Part shown: positions 1 through 5,316 of the stretch, in pieces | Layout of the letters: each line of letters opens with the position of its first letter | Position numbering within the stretch: position 1 is the stretch's first letter | NCBI GenBank assembly: GCA_016789755.1 | Contig: JAEUQG010000145.1 | Location: 1-34,458 of the forward strand | Origin: Bryobacterales bacterium | GTDB taxonomy: Bacteria > Acidobacteriota > Terriglobia > Bryobacterales > Bryobacteraceae | Reading direction: 5' to 3' | DNA length: 34,458 nucleotides | Made by a program: the position numbers and the translations under genes | The notes under the pieces: model-generated | Seen by the model: the letters and a program-made list of their open reading frames with translations, nothing else | The model's database searches: none | Told to the model about the DNA's origin: nothing

Positions 1-1129
1 CTAGGTCTTTGACCGTTTGGAAGTCTTCCTTATATAGCCGAACTTGGCGCGAGCTGCCTTGCGAGTGAAACTCCATTGAATGTGTACGCGGTTGCGATTG
101 GCCTCGGTGTTCCAGGAGCGAATGCTGGAATCGAGTTGTTCCAGCGTGGGGATCCGGCGGCGTCCCAAACACTGTCGAGATACCAAACTCAGCTCGAGTT
201 CGGCTTGGTTGAGCCAACTGCCGTGTTTGGGTGTGTAGTGTACGTTCAGGCGGTTCCAGAGATAGCTGCCTTCTTTCTCGCCGAAGTGATCCGTGAGAGA
301 TTTGCGGCAATGGATGTTGAGGTTGTCCATCACCAAGTGGATCTTCCGAGCGAAGGGATAGGCGGCGACTACGCGCTGAACGACTTGCGCGAACTGCGCC
401 GCGGAGCGGTCGGGCGTGGCACAGGTATAGTGCCGTCCCGCCTTAGGTTCCACGACAGCAAAAATGTTGGCTGTTCCACAGCGTTTGTATTCGTTATCCC
501 TTCTGGCACTCCGACTCGGCCGTGCTGGCCGGAAGGGGCGGACATCAGCATGCAAAGAAACGGGTTTTTCGTCCAGACAAAGCACAGGCTCGGTGCTCCG
601 ATACGGCTTTTCATACACTGCCAGCACGTCTTCCATCTTGGTGATGTATTCTTCATCCAACTCGGCGATGCACCACATTTTTTTCCCGCCACGGCTTCAA
701 GTCGTGGCTCTGGAGCAAGATGCGAATCGTTTCCCGGCCGACTCCAGGAACCAGCTTTCGCTTGACGGCTTCTTCGGCAATCAAGCGCACCGTCCAGCGG
801 GATCGTCCCTCTGGCGGTTGGCTACAAGCCATGGCGATGATCCGCTGCTTGTCAGAAGCCTGCAGCAGTTCCGCATGCCCTGTGCGCTTCTTCTCAAACA
901 GGGCCCGCTCAAGACCTTCTTCTCGATACCGCTTAGCGATGACGCGGATGGCCTGTGCGGTGAACGGCACGACTTGCGCCACCTTGGGAGCGCTGAGACC
1001 GGCATCGAGTTGCAGTAAAGCCAGTGCTCGCAACACCACCCGTACTTGCTGGATGCCTCCGCACAACATCTGCTCCAGTGCTTTCCGGTCCTGCGTTGTT
1101 AGACGGAACGACGAAGGTGGGCGTGGCAT
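1..1129 (-). CDS. IS630-family transposase, two overlapping frames joined by -1 frameshift
   Basis: The first frame (ATG 1129 to stop at 653) holds the N-terminal helix-turn-helix region. The second frame (open from about 692 down to the TAG at 1-3) holds the catalytic core. Conserved IS630 DDE signatures are visible in the second frame: LCLDEKP (first Asp), HLVMDNLNIH (second Asp) and HGSWLNQAELELS (Glu). The frames overlap at a run of seven A on the minus strand (684-678). A -1 slip there joins ...LKPWREK to KMWCIAELDEEY, which restores an uninterrupted family-like sequence of roughly 375 residues. Programmed -1 frameshifting at A-rich heptamers is known in IS630 elements, so this is probably a functional split gene and not a pseudogene, although a simple indel in the A run cannot be excluded. 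The TTG at 1135 is an alternative start; ATG 1129 is preferred. Confidence 0.88.
4..30 (+). repeat. IS630 left terminal inverted repeat
   Basis: Read with its TA/CTAG flank (1-30), this end matches the reverse complement of 1173-1202 at 24 of 30 positions. The outer 16 bases have a single mismatch, followed by a more diverged inner part that ends in a shared TTCCT. The repeat overlaps the 3' end of the transposase frame. Confidence 0.88.
678..684 (-). other. A7 slippery heptamer, putative programmed -1 frameshift site
   Basis: Seven consecutive T on the plus strand give A AAA AAA on the coding strand, exactly where the two transposase frames overlap. Re-pairing one base back joins the DNA-binding and catalytic parts in frame. 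No downstream pseudoknot was established by eye. Confidence 0.75.
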
Positions 1130-1172
1130 ACCCAAGTATAGGCCAAAACATTTCCGATTGGAATTGTTTGTT

Positions 1173-1199
1173 AGGAATATGTTCAGACGGTCACAGACC
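1173..1199 (-). repeat. IS630 right terminal inverted repeat
   Basis: This is the partner of the left repeat at 4-30. It lies upstream of the transposase start, so the transposase promoter probably overlaps or lies just inside this end. TA (1200-1201) and G1202 complete the CTAG target. Confidence 0.88.
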
Positions 1200-1882
1200 T
1201 AGTCGTTGAGTTGGAAGGTTCCGACGAAAGCGCTACGCTTTTCGGGGCTCTTCCATGTGGTGCCCAAGCCATCGCCCTGGTAGGAGTGGGCGAGGGAGTA
1301 GGCGGGCATGGCGTGATCGAGTTTGGTGAGCGGCTGGTACCAGACCTCTTCGTTGGTGCAGATGTGGTCGCCGTCGTGGATGGCGCGGGTAGTGATCTCG
1401 GCGATGGCGCCGGCCTTAAGGGTGGCCGTGGCGCTGTGAATATTGTTGTTCTTCACGGTGAGATCGACGGGGGCGTAAACCACTTTGACGACGTGCTGCA
1501 TGAGGTCGCCGCCCATGCGAGTGGCGAACTTCTGAAGTGCCATGCGCTGTTCGGGGGTGGCGCGCTCATCGACGATGAGGACGGACTTCACGGGGTAGGC
1601 GTTGGTATGGACATCGCCAAGAGTGGCGCTGGCCTTGACCACGCCGACCACTCCGAGCCCGTCGAGGCTCACGCCATCGAAGTTTCCTTTGGAAACTCTC
1701 CAGCCGAAAACGGCCAGATCGCCCATGAGGTTCACTTCGGCATTGGCAAAACAAGGTCCAGTGAAAATATCAGCAGTGCGCGCTTCCACGTATTCGCCGT
1801 GGAGGCGCGATTTTTCCAGTCCAGCGCCGAACGCCAAGGAGGTCAGCGCGGCGGACAACACGATCGCTTTCATCGACTTCAT
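1199..1882 (-). CDS. Secreted DUF1326-type protein of unknown function
   Basis: A protein of about 227 residues with an N-terminal signal peptide (MKSMKAIVLSAALTSLAFGA), then a region of the type GEYVEARTADIFTGPCFANAE that resembles the start of DUF1326 proteins. The function of that family is not established. The ATG at 1882 is preferred because AAGGAG lies about 10 bases upstream (1892-1897); the in-frame TTG at 1903 would overlap that ribosome-binding site. A -10-like TATAGT lies at 1909-1904, without a convincing -35. The stop codon TAG (1201-1199) coincides with the IS630 target CTAG. Because the left flank is also C-TA, the pre-insertion stop was also TAG, so the protein is not truncated. 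Two Cys (one in TGPCF, one in HICTNE) are visible. The DUF1326 assignment is from recalled family pattern and is moderately sure. Confidence 0.7.
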   Translation of the reverse strand: MKSMKAIVLSAALTSLAFGAGLEKSRLHGEYVEARTADIFTGPCFANAEVNLMGDLAVFGWRVSKGNFDGVSLDGLGVVGVVKASATLGDVHTNAYPVKSVLIVDERATPEQRMALQKFATRMGGDLMQHVVKVVYAPVDLTVKNNNIHSATATLKAGAIAEITTRAIHDGDHICTNEEVWYQPLTKLDHAMPAYSLAHSYQGDGLGTTWKSPEKRSAFVGTFQLND

Positions 1883-1923
1883 TATCCTCAGCTCCTTAGA
1901 CAAACTATATCATTACGGCAAGA

Positions 1924-3171: not shown

Positions 3172-5316
3172 TTACGCGCTCCTCCTTTCTTCGAGAGCCC
3201 TGAGAACACGGTCTGGGGTAAGTGGGATGATGGGCACGCGGACGCCGATGGCGTTGGCTACGGCGTTGGCGATGGCGGCGACTCCGCCCACGGTGGGTGG
3301 TTCGCCGAGGCCGATGACGCCGCGCTTGTCGAGTTCTTCGCGGATGTCCATGTGGACGATGATTTCGCCGATGTCGGCGGCGCCGGCGAGCTTGTAGAAC
3401 TCCATGTCGGGGTTCAACACGCGGCCGGTCTGGCCATCCATGACGCGCTCTTCCATGAGAGCGCCGCAGATGGACATGATGCAAGCGCCGGTGACCTGGC
3501 CTTCGGCGAGCTTCGGATTGACGACGAGGCCGCAATCCTGTACGGCGACCATGCGGTTCATCTTGACGACGCCGGTTTCGACATCGACGCTGACGTCCGC
3601 AATCTGGACGCCGGCAACGCCCTGGGTGTTGAGTCCGAGGGGATTGCGGGGATTGTTCTGGCCTTGGGCGGCGATGCTCTGTGTGCCGAGTTTGCGGCAG
3701 GCAGCGGCCCAAGTGAGAGACTTGGCCGGATCGCCTTTGACCTGGATCTTGCCGCCGACGGCTTCGAGTTTGTCAGCGGTGGTGCTGAGAGATGCCGCGA
3801 CCTTTTCAAACAACTGATCGAGGGCGTTGACGGTGGCGATGCGTGTGGAACTGCTGACGCCGCCGACGGTGGTGGATCCGCCGGAGCCGTTGGAGGGAGG
3901 CAGGGAGTTGTCGCCCAGCTTCACCTTGATGGCGTTGACAGGCAGCCCGAGGGTTTCGGCGGCGACCTGCGCGATGATGGTGCGGGTGCCGGTGCCGAGG
4001 TCCTGACTGCCGAGTTCGATATCGACGGAACCGTCGGGGTTGATCCTGGCGTTGCAGGTGGAGGCGTGGCCGGCGCCGCCCCAGGAGCAGATGCCGACGC
4101 CGAGGCCGCGTTTGACGGGGCCGGAGCCGGAATCGCCGCGGCGATGCCAGCGCTTGCTCCATTCGGCCAGTTCGGCGGCTTTCTTGAACTGGTGGACGTA
4201 GGACTCGCGGCGGGCTTCGGGGGCGTACTCGATGTTTTTGACGAAGACCTCAATGGGATCCATGCCGAGTTTGGCGGCGAGGTCTTCGACAGCAGCGCAG
4301 GTGAGGAACGAAGCCTGCGGATGATTGGGGGCTCGCCAGGCGCGGAGTGGGCCGCCGTTGGTGGCGACGGCGGAGTGATTGAGACGCCGGTTGGGAATGT
4401 TCGTAATGACGTAGGGGATGGGAGGCAGCGCGCCGCCGCCCATGCCGCCGGTGGCCCAAGAAGTGGACTCCCAAGCGATGATGGTGCCATCTTTCTTGGC
4501 GCCCATTTTGATGCGCGCGTAGGCGGAGGGCCGGTTGCCGGCGATGTTGAGTTCTGTGGCGCGGTCGAGGAAGGTTTTCACCGGGCGGCCGCCACTGGCT
4601 TTGGACAGGCGAGCGCCTTCGACGCCCCAGCGGTCGGAGCCGAACTTGGACCCGAATCCTCCGCCGATGTGGTCCTGGTGGACTTTGATGGCAGTGGCAG
4701 GGAGTTCGATGTTTTTGGCGAGATCGCCGCCGATGCCGGAGACGTTCTGGGTGGAGGGCCAATAGTTGACCTGGTCGCCATTCCACTGCACGACCTGGCC
4801 GTGGGGTTCGAGGCAGCAGTGGGTGAGGACGGGAATGCCGTAGTGGCCTTCGTTGACGACGTCGGCTTCCTTAAACGCCTTGTCGGGATCGCCAGTGAGC
4901 TGTTCGCCGGCGGGCTTGGCGCGGTTGCCGACTTTGGAAATATCCTCTTCCTTCACGACGTGGGGGAGGACTTCGTAGTCGACTTTGATGAGACGGACGG
5001 CATCGCGCGCGGCTTGTTCCGTGCTGGCGGCGACGATGGCGATTTCCTGGCTTTGCCACTGGAGTTCGGTGCCGGGTGTGGCGATGACACGGACGGCAGT
5101 GACTCCGGGAGCTTTCTCGGCGGCGGAAGTGTCGATACTGCGGACTCGCGCATGAGCATAAGGCGAGGTGAGCAGCGCCGACTGGAGCATGCCGGGTTTG
5201 TTGAGATCGGAGTTGTACTTAGCCTTACCGGTGGATTTTTCCAGGCCGTCGTGACGCGAAAGGCGCTGGCCGATGGCCTTGCGCGTACTCATGGGGGGCC
5301 AACTGTAGTTAGGCAT
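3172..5316 (-). CDS. Molybdopterin-binding catalytic subunit of a molybdenum hydroxylase
   Basis: A 714-residue large subunit of the xanthine dehydrogenase/aldehyde oxidoreductase family, which hydroxylates an aldehyde or N-heterocycle at a Mo-molybdopterin centre. The N-terminal aldehyde oxidase a/b hammerhead domain (GKAKYNSDL ... SPYAHARVRSID) is followed by Mo-binding segments such as HCCLEPHGQVVQW, GGGFGSKFG and GSGGSTTVGGVSS. Near the C-terminus is GVIGLGEPP, which contains the catalytic Glu typical of the family. The substrate cannot be deduced. The start ATG 5316 follows AGGGAG by about 8 bases and overlaps the end of the 2Fe-2S gene by 8 bases (ATGCCTAA), so translation is coupled. 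There is no own signal peptide, so it would travel with the Tat-exported small subunit. A cytosolic complex is the alternative if the Tat signal is not used. Confidence 0.93.
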   Translation of the reverse strand: MPNYSWPPMSTRKAIGQRLSRHDGLEKSTGKAKYNSDLNKPGMLQSALLTSPYAHARVRSIDTSAAEKAPGVTAVRVIATPGTELQWQSQEIAIVAASTEQAARDAVRLIKVDYEVLPHVVKEEDISKVGNRAKPAGEQLTGDPDKAFKEADVVNEGHYGIPVLTHCCLEPHGQVVQWNGDQVNYWPSTQNVSGIGGDLAKNIELPATAIKVHQDHIGGGFGSKFGSDRWGVEGARLSKASGGRPVKTFLDRATELNIAGNRPSAYARIKMGAKKDGTIIAWESTSWATGGMGGGALPPIPYVITNIPNRRLNHSAVATNGGPLRAWRAPNHPQASFLTCAAVEDLAAKLGMDPIEVFVKNIEYAPEARRESYVHQFKKAAELAEWSKRWHRRGDSGSGPVKRGLGVGICSWGGAGHASTCNARINPDGSVDIELGSQDLGTGTRTIIAQVAAETLGLPVNAIKVKLGDNSLPPSNGSGGSTTVGGVSSSTRIATVNALDQLFEKVAASLSTTADKLEAVGGKIQVKGDPAKSLTWAAACRKLGTQSIAAQGQNNPRNPLGLNTQGVAGVQIADVSVDVETGVVKMNRMVAVQDCGLVVNPKLAEGQVTGACIMSICGALMEERVMDGQTGRVLNPDMEFYKLAGAADIGEIIVHMDIREELDKRGVIGLGEPPTVGGVAAIANAVANAIGVRVPIIPLTPDRVLRALEERRSA

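Follow-up and report, generated by a model that had tools for sequence, protein, structure and literature searches.

Transposition of ISY100, a member of the IS630 family, duplicates TA in vitro (PMC2170065). IS870 of Agrobacterium, according to the title of the paper describing it (Fournier, Paulus and Otten 1993, J. Bacteriol. 175:3151-3160, cited in PMC6471742), depends on CTAG for the making of the stop codon of its large ORF1. An IS630 element of Roseiflexus shows transcriptional slippage on T5C5, aided by a hairpin (PMC5009743).

The element studied here resembles ISY100 and the IS630-Tc1-mariner elements in its transposase, at the family level, and in insertion at TA with TA duplication, but the insertions of ISY100 are described as into TA, whereas the element group of the window sits in CTAG (PMC2170065). 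The CTAG target and a target-made stop codon of the large ORF are common to IS870 and the window element, as far as the title of the IS870 paper allows the comparison (PMC6471742). As in Roseiflexus, the IS630-family transposase is spread over two frames, although slippage there uses T5C5 with a hairpin and the conserved run of the window element is A7 (PMC5009743). Very probably, a cut-and-paste element of this family entered the CTAG at the end of a DUF1326 gene, where the final codon, for Asp, meets the TAG stop, and the stop was rebuilt.

The element and its two junctions

The window, i.e. the whole stretch of 34,458 nucleotides that was analysed, is the entire contig C589 of an assembly of 596 contigs. 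The relevant features are the following.

1 to 4: left junction CTAG, with TA at 2-3; holds the TAG stop of the transposase, and base 1 is also the start of the contig
4 to 1199, minus strand: IS630-family insertion sequence of 1196 nt, a length that does not count the TA duplications on either side, with inverted-repeat ends beside TA and matches to NCBIfam transpos_IS630 in both ORFs
1 to 678, minus strand: transposase ORF 2, DDE part (Pfam DDE_3, 5.9e-28; NCBIfam transpos_IS630, 4e-37, above cut-off)
653 to 1135, minus strand: transposase ORF 1, helix-turn-helix part (Pfam HTH_32, 2.3e-14)
678 to 684, minus strand: A7 run at the meeting point of the two transposase frames, kept in relatives too
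1199 to 1202: right junction CTAG, with TA at 1200-1201; the minus-strand TAG at 1201-1199 is the DUF1326 stop, and the empty site is found in G004
1199 to 1903, minus strand: DUF1326 gene, of 234 aa if translation begins at the first possible start; its end reads ...FQLND TAG (Pfam DUF1326, 3.7e-14)

The element is flanked by TA at both ends (2-3 and 1200-1201), as are its relatives. Its ends, GGTCTTTGACCGTTTGGA and GGTCTGTGACCGTCTGAA, are imperfect inverted repeats in which 15 of 20 positions match. Both ends have G as their first base, a property shared by nearly all relatives with ends found, and CTAG stands at both ends in most of the related elements whose ends were located. At the right junction the DUF1326 gene reads ...CTC AAC GAC TAG, in which the TAG consists of the target TA (1200-1201) and the first base, G, of the element. 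The right-end CTAG is indeed the TAG stop of this gene, as the earlier note had proposed.

Several related loci deserve mention in their own right. The junctions of a related element in L096, at 2610 and 3813, read GTAG instead of CTAG, and this element sits within a long ORF. A fragment of the right end of the window element, of about 89 nt and 93% identical, with CTAG at its end, was found in L008 (G000:C120, approximately 4952-5041). A decayed remnant of a related element lies directly 3' of another gene in L009 (G000:C592, approximately 2815-2990); judged by eye, the TGA of this neighbouring gene may derive from within the old element end.

The IS630-family transposase is encoded by two overlapping minus-strand ORFs, the first of which matches the first part of the NCBIfam transpos_IS630 model below the cut-off. 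The frame of the second does not close within the element but continues into the target TA, and its stop, the complement of 1-3 (TAG), is made of the target TA and the flanking G. The same exact end at the junction TAG was observed in 16 of 25 element copies (the window copy and 15 of 24 relatives). The claim that the left-end CTAG supplies the transposase stop is thereby borne out, although it describes a property already known, by title, from IS870.

The split of the transposase frame lies at GCGGGAAAAAAATG; 18 of the 25 copies compared have an A7 run at this point (the run was noticed in the window and in L081-L116). In L120 the split site holds A6, and the transposase is encoded there by a single uninterrupted ORF of 373 aa. 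This pattern points to programmed slippage or frameshifting as the probable origin of the split frame, and not to a decayed copy. The transposase ORF starts 63 nt past the DUF1326 stop on the same strand (window 1135-1199), an arrangement in which the two could be co-transcribed.

The left flank and the DUF2750 site

Base 1 is the first base of C589 and lies inside an overlap of 141 nt with contig C387, the end of which is identical to window 1-141. The overlap is probably of the sort that de Bruijn assembly produces around a repeat. Because the contig ends within it, base 1 gives no independent evidence on the left flank of the window copy; it tells only that, in the copies with this end in common, the base before TA is C. 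The earlier note had argued from this base that the stop before insertion was TAG, an argument that is invalid, since the contig breaks in the overlap and its sole neighbouring contig has the same end within a different gene.

Past the CTAG, C387 carries a DUF2750 gene (Pfam 2.1e-16), which is broken by the identical element end at an in-frame CTA/G. The empty DUF2750 site is found in C41, which has 71 bases in common with C387 through the CTAG, after which the DUF2750 reading frame goes on. One genome bin contains both the occupied (L007, G000:C387, 3116-3323) and the empty version (L073, G000:C41, 1-120), and their comparison identifies the target, on the readable side, as the TA of CTAG. 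Both versions side by side suggest that this insertion is polymorphic, recent and gene-breaking; the identical 141-base end, at a site that is also empty in the bin, suggests recent movement of the element.

A search of the bin with the DNA and the proteins downstream of the DUF1326 gene in G004 yielded unrelated or paralogous matches only, and the sequence that truly adjoins the window copy on the left was not found. Since this flank is absent from the assembly, the TA duplication is legible on one side only at the DUF1326 site. C387 was judged unlikely to be the missing flank, in view of its DUF2750 gene and the empty site in C41, but it is retained as a rival in the following form. The window copy could be a hybrid, in which C387 and C589 became linked through one element when a copy at the DUF1326 stop recombined with the copy in the DUF2750 gene, so that the left flank would be DUF2750. 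In line with this, none of the contigs in the bin other than C387 ends with the left end of the element (141 nt identical), no contig links the right end of the element to the DUF2750 side in C41, and C589 is unbroken at its right end, where two intact copies in one assembly graph would predict a break; the last point counts against a simple insertion. On the other hand, the empty site in C41 means that part of the population never carried the DUF2750 copy, a contig that stops at base 1 implies one or more further left flanks, and in a bin that is 87% complete a contig is easily missing. We therefore regard a hybrid as unlikely. The right junction, and hence the DUF1326 stop codon, would be unaffected by it.

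Stop codons among CTAG sites

CTAG is a rare word in this genome. In 404 kb of G000 it occurs 124 times, compared with 1407 expected from the base composition (11-fold rarer) and 406 from a second-order model (3-fold rarer). The 176 background CTAGs of G000 and G004 comprise 35 TAG stops, 92 sites within genes and 49 between genes, approximate figures since the classes were assigned with a simple, crude codon-usage caller trained on two genomes. Stop codons take up approximately 20% of the CTAGs but only 2.4% of the TA dinucleotides in G000.

For comparison, 27 other insertions of the element group were collected for which both flanks are present, namely 26 relatives and the DUF2750 copy, with the window copy excluded. 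Five are in stop codons, six in genes and 16 between genes, proportions that are again approximate, as the relatives belong to other genera and phyla. In L168 the stop codon hit is that of an unnamed ORF; in the other four of the five cases the gene is recognisable, and encodes MutL, an OEP outer membrane efflux protein, a pyridine nucleotide-disulphide oxidoreductase or a KAP NTPase. Gene-interior sites are depleted among the insertions (22% versus 52% in the background, p=0.004), whereas sites between genes are over-represented (p=0.002). A search of a literature collection with few subscription papers turned up no previous survey of IS630 elements inserted at the stop codons of host genes.

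An active preference of the element for stop codons as harmless targets might be read from the five related insertions, out of 27, and the window copy that lie exactly in stops. This rate, however, equals the stop share of the CTAGs (5/27, or 18.5%, against 35/176; Fisher p=1), and six of the 27 insertions, including the DUF2750 copy, are inside called genes. Such a preference is highly improbable and was rejected on the background rate. As approximately 20% of the CTAGs are TAG stops, a CTAG-specific element meets a stop about once in five insertions; landing in a stop is passive, and the coincidence at the DUF1326 gene is mild. The description of a TAG stop as a natural safe site for the element, given in the earlier note, holds in this passive sense, but the same element end breaks the DUF2750 gene within the bin.

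Because rare CTAGs are concentrated at TAG stops to a far greater extent than TAs, one could also imagine that CTAG specificity and G-terminal ends have been kept by selection as a self-limiting strategy, which would do less damage to the host than plain TA insertion. We consider this quite unlikely.

The end of the DUF1326 gene and the rebuilt stop

Relatives of the DUF1326 gene are present in 46 of 61 genomes. The closest, in G004, encodes a protein that is 94% identical, and the gene order upstream of DUF1326 is the same there. G004 contains the empty site that the earlier note had proposed to obtain from close relatives: its DUF1326 gene does not continue past the insertion point but ends at the same Asp codon, GAC TAG, with the TAG within CTAG. 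A CTAG is likewise found at the DUF1326 end in G001 and G007. The end of the protein is the same LND in ten of the 11 congeners, and the eleventh ends with FED at the same position. Since the gene at the empty site stops right after the same Asp codon, and its TAG is part of a CTAG, it is supported that the insertion took no residue from the DUF1326 protein and that the previous stop was TAG, as the earlier note had maintained.

That the gene was formerly longer and was cut short by the element with a premature TAG, which ends starting with G after TA would create in any gene entered in that frame, is scarcely credible given the shared end in the congeners and the 18 other relatives checked, none of which extends more than nine residues beyond the match.

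In the preferred reading, insertion at the stop, a cut-and-paste IS630-family element would insert at the TA of CTAG, the target here being the CTAG where the terminal Asp codon of the DUF1326 gene adjoins its TAG stop (GAC TAG). The TA would be duplicated upon strand transfer and, with element ends that start with G, both junctions again read C-TA-G. The DUF1326 gene would regain its TAG from the target TA and the G of the element, while the transposase frame would run off the far end and gain a TAG from the target TA and the flanking G. Because both ends begin with G, a gene whose stop codon begins with this TA regains TAG in either orientation of the element. Stop codons would be entered as often as their share of the CTAG sites predicts, and insertions of this kind would persist since nothing is broken. 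Persistence by selection, the left flank of the window copy and the activity of the transposase are the parts of this account that we infer.

The rescue of the stop codon is the expected outcome of a known target rule; it is real, and its mechanism is ordinary and documented. What is usefully added is the measured background, namely the scarcity of CTAG and its strong concentration at TAG stops. The locus and its background form a measured example of how the target word of a transposon alone can steer insertions to harmless places, with the stop restored automatically. A gene end beside an IS630 element may bear a TAG derived from the element and yet be the natural end of the gene.
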